A DNA stretch of 64,000 nucleotides, from NCBI RefSeq assembly GCF_001598915.1, contig NZ_BDAP01000004.1:1-64000 (forward strand). Direction: 5' to 3'. A model generated the notes under the pieces. That model saw only the letters and a program-made list of their open reading frames with translations. It did no database searches and had not been told where the DNA came from. The DNA comes from Williamsia muralis NBRC 105860. Its GTDB lineage: Bacteria; Actinomycetota; Actinomycetes; Mycobacteriales; Mycobacteriaceae. The first letter of the stretch is position 1. Each line of letters opens with the position of its first letter. The position numbers were made by a program, and so were the translations under genes. Of the stretch, positions 51,054 through 59,820 are shown in pieces.

Positions 51054-51699
<646 letters not shown>

Positions 51700-53582: not shown

Positions 53583-55403
53583 TCACTCATCCAGCTCGGT
53601 CGATCCCGGTGCTTCCTTAGCGCTCCCCTCGCTCTGCTCAGGGGCCGGAGACACCGACGGCAACGACGCCGACGGTGAGGTAGACGACGGTGAGGTGGGT
53701 GGCGGGAGCGGGGTCTCGGACGGCGTCGCCGACAGGATCGGCAGCGAAATCAGCCATCCAGCCGTGCCATTCGGTTGCCACAGCACGGGCGCGACCGGAT
53801 CGGGGACCTCGAAGATCACCCAGCCGGCCGCGGTGCGGCCCGGAGTCAAGGTGGAAAGCGTTTGCCCGAGTGATCCACACGGTTGACCCCAGCTCGAAAT
53901 CGGCGCGCCTGAACCGTTGCCCTGACTGAACTGAGATGACTCCACACCATTCAGCGCGTACTCACCGGTGTGCGTGGACGGGGTCACCGTCATCCGCACC
54001 GCCACGGTCACCGCGGGAGAAGTGTTGCAGCTCTGATCGATCAGGACCTCGTCGATCCGCGCTGCGCCCAGGTCAGCACCATCCGTTCCGACAAGGGCGA
54101 ACTCTTCCCCGGGTGAGGGTGTGGTGGGTCCGTCCGGGACCATCACCGGTGGTGACGGTTCTGCGGTGTCGGCCGCACCTTCCGGCGGTGGTCTCACCGG
54201 GATGGCCTCGGCTGTGTCGGATGTGGTTGTGGTCGAATCTGTTTCGTCAGGTGAGGGCGTGCTGGTCGGCGTACCGGTCGGGCTCGGATCAGCAGTAGAA
54301 GTTGTGGGGTCAGTACCACCGCACTCGGCTGTCCCGTCATCCACTGGCGCGTCGTCAACTGGCGCGTCGTCGGCGTCCACAGCGGGCGGGGCCGGCGTGG
54401 TGGTCGGGGTGCCTGTCTTCGTCACCCTGGTCGTCGTTGTATCGGGAACAGCCACCTCCTCGCCCCCATCTTGGGCAACGGCCGGACACGTGGCCTGCGC
54501 GGCCTGGCGCGCACTCAGCGCCGACGGGGCGCTCAGCGGCGGGGGCTGACCTGCGGTGCCGCATTCGGCGCGGGCGAGGACAACGTTGCGCAGATTTACC
54601 TCAGGCGTGGCCGGAAAGACGTACGGCTGGGTCCACGTCATGATCAGCTCCGACCGGATGGAGGTCGCTGTCTGATCGACTTTCCACCAGATCCACATCT
54701 CCCGTACCGTCCCTATCCCGTAGCTGGGCGGCCCGTTGGCAACAGTCGGAACAGGCACTTCGCGCACAAGGAATCCGTTGTAGAGAAACGTCACCCGCCC
54801 GCTGGGGGTCGGAGCCAGCAGCTGACCCGGTCGACAAGAAGCCGACAATCCAACGGGACTGCTCACCCCCAACAAGCTCACCCCGAGTAAACCGTCGCCT
54901 TCGTATTCGAAGTTCAGATTCGATGTCCTGGTGGCTGCGCTCGAAACGGCGTCGGCCGGCGCAGATCCACACTGGGTCCCGGCAGCGTGGCGTACACACT
55001 GCGAGGAAGTCAGGCTGAAGTCCACACTGCCCGGCCACGGCAACCCACCGTTCGCCGTGCTCGACGACGTCGAGCTTCCCTGTTGGGGAGCAGCGCGGGT
55101 CACCGAGCCACCCGAAAACGTTGCCACCGTGCTCAGTGGCGAACGGCTGGGGCGCTCGATGGTGCCGGCTCCCGCTGATGCCCGTGCCCACCCTGTGGGG
55201 ACGTATGCCGGGTCGACACCGAATGTGCTTGCCCCCCAGACCTTGTCTCCCCAGGCGGCCAGTGTCCGATCGGCGAACGCCCCGGTCAACGCGGATGCGC
55301 CAACGACCGCCAGGATTGCCAGTGCCGCCGCCCCGATGAGACGCCGGCGGTGCCGCTGCCCAGCGTCTCTGTTGCCGAGTGCCTTGCTGTGATGGCCACC
55401 CAC
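53583..55403 (-). CDS. large surface protein with SipW-type signal region and DUF4352-like domain
   Basis: The product has 606 residues from a GTG. The basic N-terminus and hydrophobic segment (LIGAAALAILAVVGASALTGAF) are followed by LAAWGDKVWGASTF, nearly the same as LAAWSDSVWGQSEF in the small gene at 56144. This marks it as a SipW-dependent substrate. A large middle domain has several Cys. A Thr/Pro/Asp linker with DDAPVDDAPVDD and SPTGTPTSTPSPDETD repeats leads to a C-terminal beta domain resembling DUF4352 (RTAAGWVIFEVPDPVAPVLW). It is probably a wall- or surface-exposed matrix protein. It is third in the sipW operon, starting four bases after sipW. Confidence 0.8.
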   Translation of the reverse strand: MGGHHSKALGNRDAGQRHRRRLIGAAALAILAVVGASALTGAFADRTLAAWGDKVWGASTFGVDPAYVPTGWARASAGAGTIERPSRSPLSTVATFSGGSVTRAAPQQGSSTSSSTANGGLPWPGSVDFSLTSSQCVRHAAGTQCGSAPADAVSSAATRTSNLNFEYEGDGLLGVSLLGVSSPVGLSASCRPGQLLAPTPSGRVTFLYNGFLVREVPVPTVANGPPSYGIGTVREMWIWWKVDQTATSIRSELIMTWTQPYVFPATPEVNLRNVVLARAECGTAGQPPPLSAPSALSARQAAQATCPAVAQDGGEEVAVPDTTTTRVTKTGTPTTTPAPPAVDADDAPVDDAPVDDGTAECGGTDPTTSTADPSPTGTPTSTPSPDETDSTTTTSDTAEAIPVRPPPEGAADTAEPSPPVMVPDGPTTPSPGEEFALVGTDGADLGAARIDEVLIDQSCNTSPAVTVAVRMTVTPSTHTGEYALNGVESSQFSQGNGSGAPISSWGQPCGSLGQTLSTLTPGRTAAGWVIFEVPDPVAPVLWQPNGTAGWLISLPILSATPSETPLPPPTSPSSTSPSASLPSVSPAPEQSEGSAKEAPGSTELDE

Positions 55404-55406
55404 TGT

Positions 55407-56033
55407 TCAGGCCTCGATCCGAGAATGGGTGCCTGCACCACGTTCGGGCACTGCTATTCGGCCGTCGGGAACGCCGTCATCGGGATCGACGTCGTCCTCG
55501 CTCTGTCGGGGCCAGAAGGCCCAGAGCACCAGCAACGCAGCGCCAATTGTGATCGCCAGTAGGACGATCGGATTCGACAGCCAGATGACACCCTTGGCAA
55601 GACCCGGTACCGACCACAGGACCTTGCGTACCTCCTTGACCTGATAGCCACCCGGGTCGTCGAATGAGTTGGCATCACCACGCATTTCGAGCATCGTTGT
55701 GCCGTCGGCGCCCGGCGAGGTCTTGATCACCCGGTGCGTGATCGGCAACTGGCCAGGTCGTTTGACGGTGACCACGTCGCCCACGTCCACAGACGCCGCC
55801 GGCACCGTCTGCACGACGGCCAGCGATCCCGCCGGGATGGATGGGGCCATCGACCCGGTCTTGAACATGATGAGCGAGACGTTGAACACCACGGCCAGGA
55901 CAACCATCACGATGCACGCGAGCCCGCCCACCGCGAGGAGGTTCATGATCACGCTGCTGACGACCGACAGCGCGGATCGCCGTCTCGGGGCCGAGGGAGG
56001 TTCGGCGTGGGTGACCGGATCAGCATGAAACAT
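55407..56033 (-). CDS. sipW: signal peptidase I, SipW (ER-type)
   Basis: The protein has 208 residues from an ATG behind GGAGTCTTTG. Two N-terminal TM spans and one near the C-terminus (LLAITIGAALLVLWAFW) anchor it. The catalytic Ser is in FKTGSMAPSIPAGSL (residue 61), and His100 in LPITHRVIKTS replaces the usual Lys, the mark of eukaryotic/archaeal ER-type SipW. The GDANSFDD motif follows. SipW trims matrix proteins such as TasA/CalY in bacilli. Here the two flanking genes encode proteins with the matching signal region. Confidence 0.92.
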   Translation of the reverse strand: MFHADPVTHAEPPSAPRRRSALSVVSSVIMNLLAVGGLACIVMVVLAVVFNVSLIMFKTGSMAPSIPAGSLAVVQTVPAASVDVGDVVTVKRPGQLPITHRVIKTSPGADGTTMLEMRGDANSFDDPGGYQVKEVRKVLWSVPGLAKGVIWLSNPIVLLAITIGAALLVLWAFWPRQSEDDVDPDDGVPDGRIAVPERGAGTHSRIEA

Positions 56034-56143
56034 CAAAGACTCCTATAAATTTCCGGACTTCACGACGCGGACGCGCAAGAGATCAGGGCTACCGGGCCGC
56101 CGGGGCTCTGCAATGAACCACTGGCCCGGCGGCCGGCAGATGC

Positions 56144-56749
56144 CTACGGTTCGACGCTGGTTGCCTTGAACTCCCAGAGAACCTGCCCTGTTGTCGACGT
56201 ATTGAGCAGCGCCGCGTCGGCCGGCAGCGTCACAGTGAAACAGAAGTGCCGCGGGGTCATGTCGCCGTTGAGGATGATCGGGGTGCTTCCGCCGGCCGTC
56301 GCCACGCTTCCACCTGCCGGCCAGCCTGCGGGCGTGGTACCCGCGACGCTGCAGCTGGCGGCCTCGGTGACGGTGAGTTCGAGTTCGCCGGCCAACGCGG
56401 ACGTGTTGCCGGACGGAGCGAGGGTCACCGATGCATTCAATGCCGATGCCGCCGGCCCGACCCGCAGCGACACCGGGGCTTTGACCGATTCACCGGGCGT
56501 GAGGCTCGTGGCATCGGCCAGCGGGAATGTGAAGGTGCCGGCCGTCGGTCCCGTTGCGAACTCACCCCAGCTGGTGCCACCGTTGAAACTGCCCTGAACG
56601 TTCCACTTGTCGGTGGCGAACTCGCTCTGGCCCCAGACAGAATCACTCCAGGCCGCAAGTGTCACCGCCGCTCCCACACCGAGCACCAAACCCGCCGCAA
56701 GAATCGCTCGGATCTTGCGGCGATTACGTTTTGTGACCGTCAAACTCAT
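56144..56749 (-). CDS. SipW-dependent alternate-type signal peptide protein (putative matrix/surface protein)
   Basis: The product has 201 residues from an ATG behind GAGGTTC. The signal region is KRNRRKIRAILAAGLVLGVGAAVTLAAWSDSVWGQSEF, matching the alternate-type signal peptides seen with SipW. The mature part is beta-rich and Ser/Thr/Ala-rich (GGTSWGEFATGPTAGTFTFPLADATSLTPGESVKAPVSLRVG) with two Cys (CSVAG, FCFTV). TasA/CalY-like fibres are a possible role by analogy only. It is the first gene of the sipW operon. Confidence 0.82.
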   Translation of the reverse strand: MSLTVTKRNRRKIRAILAAGLVLGVGAAVTLAAWSDSVWGQSEFATDKWNVQGSFNGGTSWGEFATGPTAGTFTFPLADATSLTPGESVKAPVSLRVGPAASALNASVTLAPSGNTSALAGELELTVTEAASCSVAGTTPAGWPAGGSVATAGGSTPIILNGDMTPRHFCFTVTLPADAALLNTSTTGQVLWEFKATSVEP

Positions 56750-58449: not shown

Positions 58450-58659
58450 AGGAGCCCTCCGTGTTCTGTGAAGAGGTGAGTGGTTGTGCTCGAAGGACAA
58501 TAACCGGCACCCGATTCGTCCCGACGGGCCGTGGCGAATCTGCCCGGAGGTATCGAATCGACAACACGCCCACACCGATCGCCGGACTTCGGTAGCTTCG
58601 TTGCGACAGTCCTTTCCCGGGCCCACAGGCCACGAGTCGAACAAGGGCGGACCGCGACA

Positions 58660-59820
58660 ATGAGCATCCCGATGACTGCGGGCGCCAACACTGCGTTGCA
58701 GTCCGCCGAAGTCCGCATCGAGGTCGGGGTGAGCGGACGGCAGCTCGACGTGTCGGCGCTGTTGGTGGCCCCGTCGGGCAAAGTGCGCAGCGACGCCGAC
58801 CTGATCTTCTTCAACGCGCCCGTCGGGCCGGGGCTGCGTCACATGCCCGGTACTGCGCACGGTCCCGATGCAGTCTGCATCACCCTGGCCGCCGTTCCGT
58901 CGGCCATCGACAAGGTGGTGATCACGGCCAGCCTCGATCCCCCGGCCACCACGTTCGCCGGGACGAATCCACATGCCCGCGTCATCGATGCGGCGAACGG
59001 TGACCTGCTCGCCACGTTCGACCCGGCAAATCTCTCCGGCGAGACCGCCCTGATCGTCTTCGAGGTCTATCGGCGCGGCGGGGGGTGGAAGCTACGTGCG
59101 GTCGGGCAGGGCTACGCAGACGGATTGGCCGGGATCGCAACAGATTTCGGTATCAGCGTGGACGACCCGGACGAGACTGCGGCGACGGTGGAGCCGGTGG
59201 CGGTTCCCGCCGTCCCGGCGGCGACCCCCACCAACTCGGCGAACCATCGGCCGAACCTCGACAAAGGTCACGTGGTCCTCGAAAAACGCCAGTCGGTGGT
59301 GCTGACGAAGTTCGGCAAGCCGCTGCTGAGCAAGGTCTGGATGGGACTCGGGTGGGATCCGGTCGCCGGCAAGGGCCGGATCGATCTCGACGCGTCGTGC
59401 ATCGCCTTCGATGCCAACCGAAAGGTCGTGGCGACCTGCTGGTTCTTGAAGTTGTCGATACTCGATGGCGCGGTGGCACATTCGGGTGACAACCTGACCG
59501 GCGCAGGTGAGGGCGACGACGAGGTGATCTCCGTGGACCTGGGGCGGTTGCCCCATTCGGTCACCGGCCTGGTGTTCACCGTGAACTCCTTCTCGGGCCA
59601 GCGATTCACCGACGTCGGGCGGGCCTTCTGCAGGCTCGTCGATCACGGGAGCGGCCAGGAGATGGTCCGATTCGAACTCTCCGACTCAGGCCCCACCACC
59701 GGCGTACTGATGTGCAAGATGGTTCGTGAACCATCTGGCTGGGTGATGACCGCGCTGGGCGAATACGCCGACGGGAAAACCGTGCGCAAGATGAAAAAGC
59801 CCGCAGCCGCGGCACTCTGA
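58660..59820 (+). CDS. double TerD-domain protein
   Basis: The product has 386 residues with two TerD-type domains. The first (about 1-165) has VRSDADLIFFNAPVGPG and ALIVFEVYRRGGGWKLRAVGQGYADGLAGIATDFGI. The second (about 200-380) has the canonical VVLEKRQSVVLTKFGKPLLSKVWMGLGWDP, IDLDASCIAFDANRKVV, GDNLTGAGEGDDEVISVDLGRLP and the C-terminal GWVMTALGEYADGKTVRKM. TerD domains bind calcium through acidic loops and take part in tellurite resistance, stress and membrane signalling. No other ter gene is adjacent. Divergent from amt. Confidence 0.92.
   Translation: MSIPMTAGANTALQSAEVRIEVGVSGRQLDVSALLVAPSGKVRSDADLIFFNAPVGPGLRHMPGTAHGPDAVCITLAAVPSAIDKVVITASLDPPATTFAGTNPHARVIDAANGDLLATFDPANLSGETALIVFEVYRRGGGWKLRAVGQGYADGLAGIATDFGISVDDPDETAATVEPVAVPAVPAATPTNSANHRPNLDKGHVVLEKRQSVVLTKFGKPLLSKVWMGLGWDPVAGKGRIDLDASCIAFDANRKVVATCWFLKLSILDGAVAHSGDNLTGAGEGDDEVISVDLGRLPHSVTGLVFTVNSFSGQRFTDVGRAFCRLVDHGSGQEMVRFELSDSGPTTGVLMCKMVREPSGWVMTALGEYADGKTVRKMKKPAAAAL

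Follow-up and report, generated by a model that had tools for sequence, protein, structure and literature searches.

A SipW signal-peptidase locus of Williamsia muralis encodes a candidate TasA-class fibre subunit and a putative strand-donating partner

Detailed knowledge of TasA fibres comes from Bacillus, related fibres have been described in archaea (PMC9674648, PMC10903470), and a review describes TasA-like systems as phylogenetically widespread (PMC10903470). According to the structural accounts, residues 28-38 of TasA act as donor strand, in which F29, I32 and F39 provide hydrophobic contacts (PMC9674648), and a 'proline box' is the most conserved part of the interface (PMC10151520). The N-terminus of TapA resembles the TasA strand and is thought to supply the first strand (PMC9674648, PMC10151520). 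A search of the literature by title and start of abstract, which left subscription journals mostly uncovered, listed no paper on a SipW system in actinobacteria. The locus described here lies in a stretch of 64,000 nucleotides from Williamsia muralis NBRC 105860 (contig NZ_BDAP01000004.1, positions 1 to 64,000; hereafter the window), on contig 4 of a 5.54 Mb genome. Three consecutive minus-strand genes, across positions 56749-53583, encode a small secreted protein (S1), a signal peptidase of the endoplasmic reticulum (ER) type (SipW) and a 606-residue secreted partner (BIG). We consider it probable that S1 forms a donor-strand-exchanged fibre of the TasA/camelysin class and that BIG acts as a TapA-like initiator.

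The locus resembles tapA-sipW-tasA of Bacillus subtilis in combining a SipW-type peptidase with two SipW-type substrates. The smaller substrate has a predicted TasA-like fold, and the two substrates have an N-terminal strand in common, as is described for the Bacillus proteins. It differs from that operon in its order, which in Williamsia is subunit-sipW-partner, and in the partner, BIG, whose two domains are joined by a disordered linker and for which no PDB match was found. It differs also in the direct sequence similarity of S1 to TasA, which is below significance. The sipW-bsaA pair of Clostridium perfringens (TIGR04090) is a further parallel, reported as a SipW-dependent, secreted, beta-rich polymer (PMC7395162), but S1 has no TIGR04090 match. 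Among the NCBIfam models, S1 passes TIGR04088, the SipW-dependent signal model (26.6 bits, cut-off 19), and three proteins from two other SipW loci of the genome (loci B and C, below) pass TIGR04089. These models name a signal or a protein type, however, and no fibre or partner; S1 falls outside TIGR04089, and BIG is matched by no NCBIfam model, either of these two included. Chaperone-usher pilins and archaeal bundling pili, as they are described, have the donor-strand principle and a sandwich fold in common with the proposed fibre, but no chaperone or usher gene was seen in the locus and no sequence relation was shown. The kind of system is known; the locus most likely encodes a TasA-class donor-strand fibre with a strand-donating partner of a new kind.

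The peptidase gene (55407..56033, minus strand, ATG start) encodes 208 residues, with a Ser-His dyad of Ser61 in TGSMAP and His100 in ITHRV; His standing where other bacterial enzymes have Lys is the arrangement of the ER/archaeal type. The protein scored 60 bits against TIGR02228 (cut-off 51.85) and 25.2 against PF10502 (cut-off 22.9), and it fell under the cut-off of the Bacillus SipW equivalog NF046067 (33.2 bits versus 190). By these profiles SipW is of the ER type and is not the Bacillus equivalog. The SipW of one relative (L095) has hydrophobic segments at about residues 34-50 and 150-176, consistent with the two membrane segments of this peptidase type. The first-pass annotation, made from the letters of the window, had placed a Ser-His ER-type SipW between two proteins sharing LAAWxDxVWGxSxF, and both statements were borne out: the motif reads LAAWSDSVWGQSEF in S1 and LAAWGDKVWGASTF in BIG.

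The same annotation had called the shared motif a signal region; the sharing holds, but most of the motif appears to be mature N-terminus once a cut is predicted. In S1 (201 residues; 56144..56749 including the stop, minus strand, ATG start), residues 1-32 form the predicted signal peptide (56654..56749), with the cut at TLA|AW placed by alignment to mature TasA, whose sequence was taken from 8AUR/5OF1. The TasA chain in 8AUR begins AFNDIKSKDATF; aligned on the cut, S1 begins AWSDSVWGQSEF (mature residues 1-12, 56618..56653) and BIG begins AWGDKVWGASTF (mature residues 1-12, 55221..55256). With this alignment, W2, D4 and F12 of S1 fall on F29, D31 and F39 of TasA at the same spacing. For the S1 alignment, 134 of 146 ORFs (open reading frames) were kept, W, Y, F or L being allowed at position 2, and 75 of these were hand-picked for spread and joined to the window protein. 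W2, F12, P53 and W160 are constant in all 76 mature rows and D4 in 72; F12, P53 and W160 were not selected for. P53 sits in L-x-PG, like TasA P62 in LKPG, and lies in the predicted all-beta domain of S1 (mature 13-169, 56147..56617), where it may correspond to the 'proline box' described for TasA (PMC10151520). When the S1 and BIG families were compared by hhalign, the alignment was limited to mature columns 1-22 (E 5.2e-5, probability 67). The conservation, low model confidence and TasA-like spacing of mature residues 1-12 point to a donor strand in S1, and the family comparison to a donor-strand-like stretch in BIG.

The AlphaFold2 model of mature S1, built from the 76 rows, had a mean predicted local distance difference test (pLDDT) of 85.7. 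It consists of eight strands, any helices being shorter than 4 residues, in agreement with the small beta-rich protein first predicted. Values of pLDDT below 50 were confined to residues 2-11, and the motif stretch is unpacked in the model. A Foldseek search of 350,542 PDB chains ranked the fibre form of TasA (8AUR) first (E 4.5e-5, probability 1.00). Two chains were found at E <= 0.001, the second being a fibrillar-adhesin domain. Among ranks 2-50, 19 of the 49 rows were chaperone-usher-type pili (CfaB, type 1, Csu, CS20), judged by entry title with the chain unspecified, and one row was a Sulfolobus filament. By its predicted structure S1 belongs with the TasA class, in that the model combines the fold match with a free N-terminal strand.

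Proteins intermediate between S1 and TasA were also found. PF12389 (TasA/camelysin) had matches in six of 101 family genomes, two of them over the cut-off; these two ORFs (G018:C6 and G039:C2) overlap S1 matches on the same strand (E 4.2e-5 and 2.6e-4). Two weaker PF12389 ORFs (in G036 and G081) likewise overlap S1 matches on the same strand (E 4.0e-7 and 1.6e-7). A profile of five proteins, comprising three PF12389 matches and one protein each from loci B and C, scored 15.3 bits against TasA; in a set of nine sequences, the E-value says little. S1 is connected to TasA through such intermediates.

BIG (53583..55403, minus strand, GTG start) starts 3 bases past the SipW stop. Its AlphaFold model had a pLDDT of 69.2, with a low-confidence N-terminus (residues 1-3 and 7-16 below 50). 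In mature numbering, the model comprises a beta domain at 21-240 (54537..55196), a disordered linker at 245-365 (54162..54524) and, beyond it, another beta domain at 370-510 (53727..54149). The Thr/Pro/Asp-rich linker was as first described. The DUF4352-like end was not upheld: PF11611 scored 11.9 bits against a cut-off of 25.9, and among 12 BIG proteins four gave weak matches (best E 0.16). The body of TapA has a V-set Ig fold; for the BIG model, the Foldseek search gave no PDB chain of any fold at E <= 0.001, and no chain was found with the BIG profile up to E 1. The fold matches listed, mostly outer-membrane barrels (best probability 0.63, TM-score at most 0.28), were taken as noise. C141 and C232, both in the N-terminal domain, are invariant in an alignment of 30 rows (29 relatives and the window protein), from which L104, L105 and the cut-off L144 were left out. 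W or F occupies position 2 in 30 named BIG ORFs out of 32. The 30 aligned rows show W 24 times and F six times at this position, D at position 4 in 25 rows, and F, V, I, L or Y at position 12 throughout. By sequence, a donor-strand-like N-terminus is common to BIG and the proposed fibre subunit, as is reported for TapA and TasA. By the tests used, all 32 named BIG ORFs lack both a wall-sorting end and a C-terminal membrane segment, and the window protein ends EGSAKEAPGSTELDE. In one congener (G131, contig 5, 4103858-4105644), BIG is split in two pieces by an internal stop, with S1 and SipW intact.

These features suggest the following mechanism. SipW would cut S1 and BIG after TLA, baring the mature N-terminus AWxDxVWGxSxF. 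In S1, this stretch would serve as a donor strand, detaching from its parent domain in the fibre and inserting into the groove of the neighbouring S1. Trp2 and Phe12 would be the anchor side chains (Phe29 and Phe39 in TasA), and Pro53 would lie in the receiving pocket (Pro62 in TasA). BIG, whose body is unlike that of S1 but whose strand is the same, would give the first strand and thereby initiate or retain the fibre, in the manner of TapA with TasA; with its extended linker and C-terminal domain it might position the origin of the fibre at the mycolate layer or outside it. What the computation shows is the order of the genes, the family, the match in fold, the conservation of the motif and its disorder in the model; the cleavage site, the polymerisation, the part played by BIG and any role in biofilm are inferred.

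Relatives of S1 were found in 52 of 151 family genomes and relatives of BIG in 17, the window's own genome being counted in both. Among 394 genomes of the class, in each of which up to 8 S1 and up to 3 BIG candidates were scored, the S1 profile found 33 (3 in the window's family and 30 outside, some matches lying in long, unlike frames) and the BIG profile found 2, both in the family. By its sequence profile S1 is a member of a family that is broad among actinobacteria and that NCBI's TIGR04088 already picks out. A SipW gene lay in the same stretch as the S1 relative in 20 of 20 fetched loci and in all 80 named loci, which are the best-scoring 80 of 187. The SipW serine codon was at most 517 bases from an S1 stop in 79 of the 80. 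The sole wider gap, of 1939 bases, was in Gordonia polyisoprenivorans (L116). Among named records, Williamsia muralis has an S1 of 98% identity, which fits the mycolic-acid bacterium first supposed. One record titled Kitasatospora arboriphila NRRL B-24581 (NZ_JNYV01000004.1, L095) carries an S1 100% identical to that of the window and is probably a mislabelled assembly. A plasmid search with S1 gave a single match, of 34%, in Arthrobacter.

The genome holds three SipW loci: A (the locus described here), B (contig 2, 424-429 kb) and C (contig 4, 544-548 kb). TIGR04088 was over its cut-off at 7 places in the genome and TIGR02228 at 6, all within these loci. A degenerate DNA search for the motif found BIG with 1 mismatch, S1 with 2 and one further site with 3; a control pattern read backwards gave 7 matches, and the search at 3 mismatches is thus noise. 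The signal had been described as rare. It is not singular, given three loci in this genome and relatives across actinobacteria, but it is SipW-linked wherever TIGR04088 passes, and no spread of the motif unlinked to SipW was found in the genome or in the fetched and named loci. Ten proteins of loci B and C were scanned, among them the three that pass TIGR04089, and one protein of the second locus scored 23.3 bits against TIGR04090 (cut-off 60). The last SipW gene of each of loci B and C continues in frame through a hydrophobic segment and a TLAAL(N/T)DS site into another domain (TLAALNDS and TLAALTDS, in L019:5583-10658 on contig 2 and L020:5661-9399 on contig 4), as though the enzyme brought its substrate with it.

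The third member of the locus was compared with the type of cell envelope by assigning each of the 80 named loci, according to the genus in its record title and general taxonomy, to the mycolate Mycobacteriales (34) or to the others (46); the Kitasatospora-titled record was grouped with Williamsia. A BIG ORF of more than 300 residues was present in 31 of the 34 mycolate loci and in none of the 46 others. The three mycolate exceptions were a locus where the contig ends, with a 196-residue BIG match (L114), one with an unmatched 570-residue ORF carrying AYTDSEFAKAG near its start (L165), and one with SipW and BIG in a single 723-residue frame (L142, 5602-7773, Rhodococcus yananensis). The last is probably not a true SipW-BIG fusion, the arginine-rich junction reading like out-of-frame sequence. 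Short BIG-profile matches (158-215 residues) occurred in three non-mycolate loci (L130, L137 and L139).

Wall-sorting ends (LPxTG/LAxTG-like) showed the opposite distribution. They were found on an extra domain fused to SipW in 23 of the 46 non-mycolate loci (Brevibacterium, Leucobacter, Cellulomonas and others) and on the ORF next to SipW in 9, so that 32 had either form; by these rough rules, 14 had neither. In the 34 mycolate loci no wall-sorting end was found on SipW or on a downstream ORF. No locus had BIG and a sortase-type wall-anchored domain together, by the rules used. As background, 13 of 1606 other ORFs of at least 150 residues had such an end; 9 of these are the ORFs next to SipW already counted, and two overlap the SipW end. 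The wall-anchored domains that were read had ordinary leaders and no donor-strand motif. A wall-anchored partner compared with S1 by hhalign gave a probability of 24 (E 8.4e-4), which is suggestive only of a distant relative of S1, and no relation to BIG was seen. The link between partner and envelope is a correlation resting on few independent events, and the two groups differ in descent. We offer only tentatively the wider proposal that mycolate actinobacteria build TasA-class donor-strand fibres beyond a second membrane, that of the mycolates, with BIG, as a dedicated strand donor that initiates the fibre and retains it at the outer layer, replacing the sortase-held base of their non-mycolate relatives and with two SipW genes of this genome fused to a substrate domain of their own.

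Purine-rich stretches precede all three starts (GAGG for S1 and BIG, AGGAG for SipW). Next to the locus lie, on one side, a gene resembling glycosyltransferases together with a TetR-type regulator and, on the other, an ammonium transporter. Further off, the ORF at 51337-51699 is presumably a small secreted protein resembling resuscitation-promoting factor, and we take that at 58531-59820 to resemble two tandem TerD-type domains. The gap between S1 and SipW is 110 bases and contains a GC-rich hairpin directly 3' of the S1 stop (56089..56139, minus strand), which has no T-run; its folding z-score was -2.06 and, in a second run, -2.13, and the terminator check called no terminator in this gap. 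A first survey of ten stretches chosen by hand looked promising, but L116 among them does not represent an S1-SipW gap and two are identical. When all loci whose gap was of sufficient length were taken systematically, z <= -2 was reached in 5 of 13 gaps versus 2 of 13 control stretches inside S1, and the idea of a conserved hairpin that sets the ratio of the products was dropped.

A number of results count against a TasA-class fibre with BIG as its initiator. The match of the S1 model to 8AUR had modest TM-scores (0.48/0.38) at 8% identity, and many of the rows at ranks 2-50 were sortase-type pilins or sandwiches of no relation; among them were RrgB (a pilin of the sortase type), glycoside hydrolases, integrins, arrestin-like domains and a mutant toxin. 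A direct hhalign comparison of S1 with the single TasA sequence did not reach significance (probability 0.7) and aligned no more than the stretch around L-x-PG, and the link to TasA accordingly rests on the fold and the bridging proteins. PF12389 did not match the window protein (0 families at E <= 1), gave no match anywhere in the window's own genome and matched only 2 of the 76 S1 rows (best E 0.18). A PDB sequence search with the S1 profile listed two chains up to E 10, the collagen adhesin 1AMX (E 0.02) and a deacetylase (0.61). The constancy of W2 was partly selected, since the scan pattern held TLAAW and rows with W, Y, F or L were kept. Recognition by SipW could likewise keep the residues after the cut conserved. 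Two BIG ORFs from Rhodococcoides corynebacterioides, L104 and L105, have no aromatic residue at position 2 and are among those left out of the alignment, and the left-out rows and the weaker hairpin result together slightly lower the support.

One alternative holds that the motif is an extended SipW recognition site and nothing else, S1 and BIG being separate, non-polymerising surface or secreted proteins. This would agree with TIGR04088 being a signal-peptide model that spans the cut and with the otherwise unrelated bodies of S1 and BIG, but we think it improbable: F12 is constant in 76 of 76 S1 rows though not selected for, the stretch is unpacked in the model, and the wall-anchored partners read in other loci lack the motif although they are encoded with SipW or fused to it. 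The first-pass annotation had proposed a unit like TasA, TapA and SipW, with S1 as the fibre unit and BIG as anchor or cap. The fold, the donor-strand-like N-terminus, the bridging proteins and the gene order argue for the first part. The second part can only be presumed: the strand of BIG is like that of a TapA-type initiator, but the protein has no sortase signal, C-terminal membrane segment or credible PDB match. That S1 forms fibres on which BIG is a tip adhesin or cap, and not an initiator or anchor, is a possibility to be taken seriously, given the size of BIG, its two beta domains and long linker, and its lack of those two terminal signals. We nevertheless give it less weight than initiation, because its donor-strand-like N-terminus (with W or F at position 2 in 30 of 32 ORFs and a hydrophobic residue at position 12 in 30 of 30 rows) and its close coupling to sipW resemble TapA. 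A role other than biofilm, for instance in an envelope layer or in cell-cell contact in liquid culture, appears somewhat doubtful. Three different SipW loci in one genome suggest a division of labour, and the spread of S1 is patchy (52 of 151 family genomes), but the characterised relatives TasA and BsaA are described as biofilm matrix polymers (PMC9674648, PMC7395162).

If the proposed fibre with a BIG initiator is correct, a TasA-class operon in mycolic-acid bacteria would bring this mechanism to cells bounded by a layer resembling an outer membrane, and it would raise the question of how a fibre is held at the mycolate layer. The envelope-linked switch of partner, from BIG to a wall-anchored domain or the reverse, sets side by side in nature two solutions for holding a fibre that may be the same in both. 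A widespread actinobacterial family, present in 33 of the 394 class genomes sampled, would thereby gain a candidate mechanism centred on the twelve residues that follow the cut.

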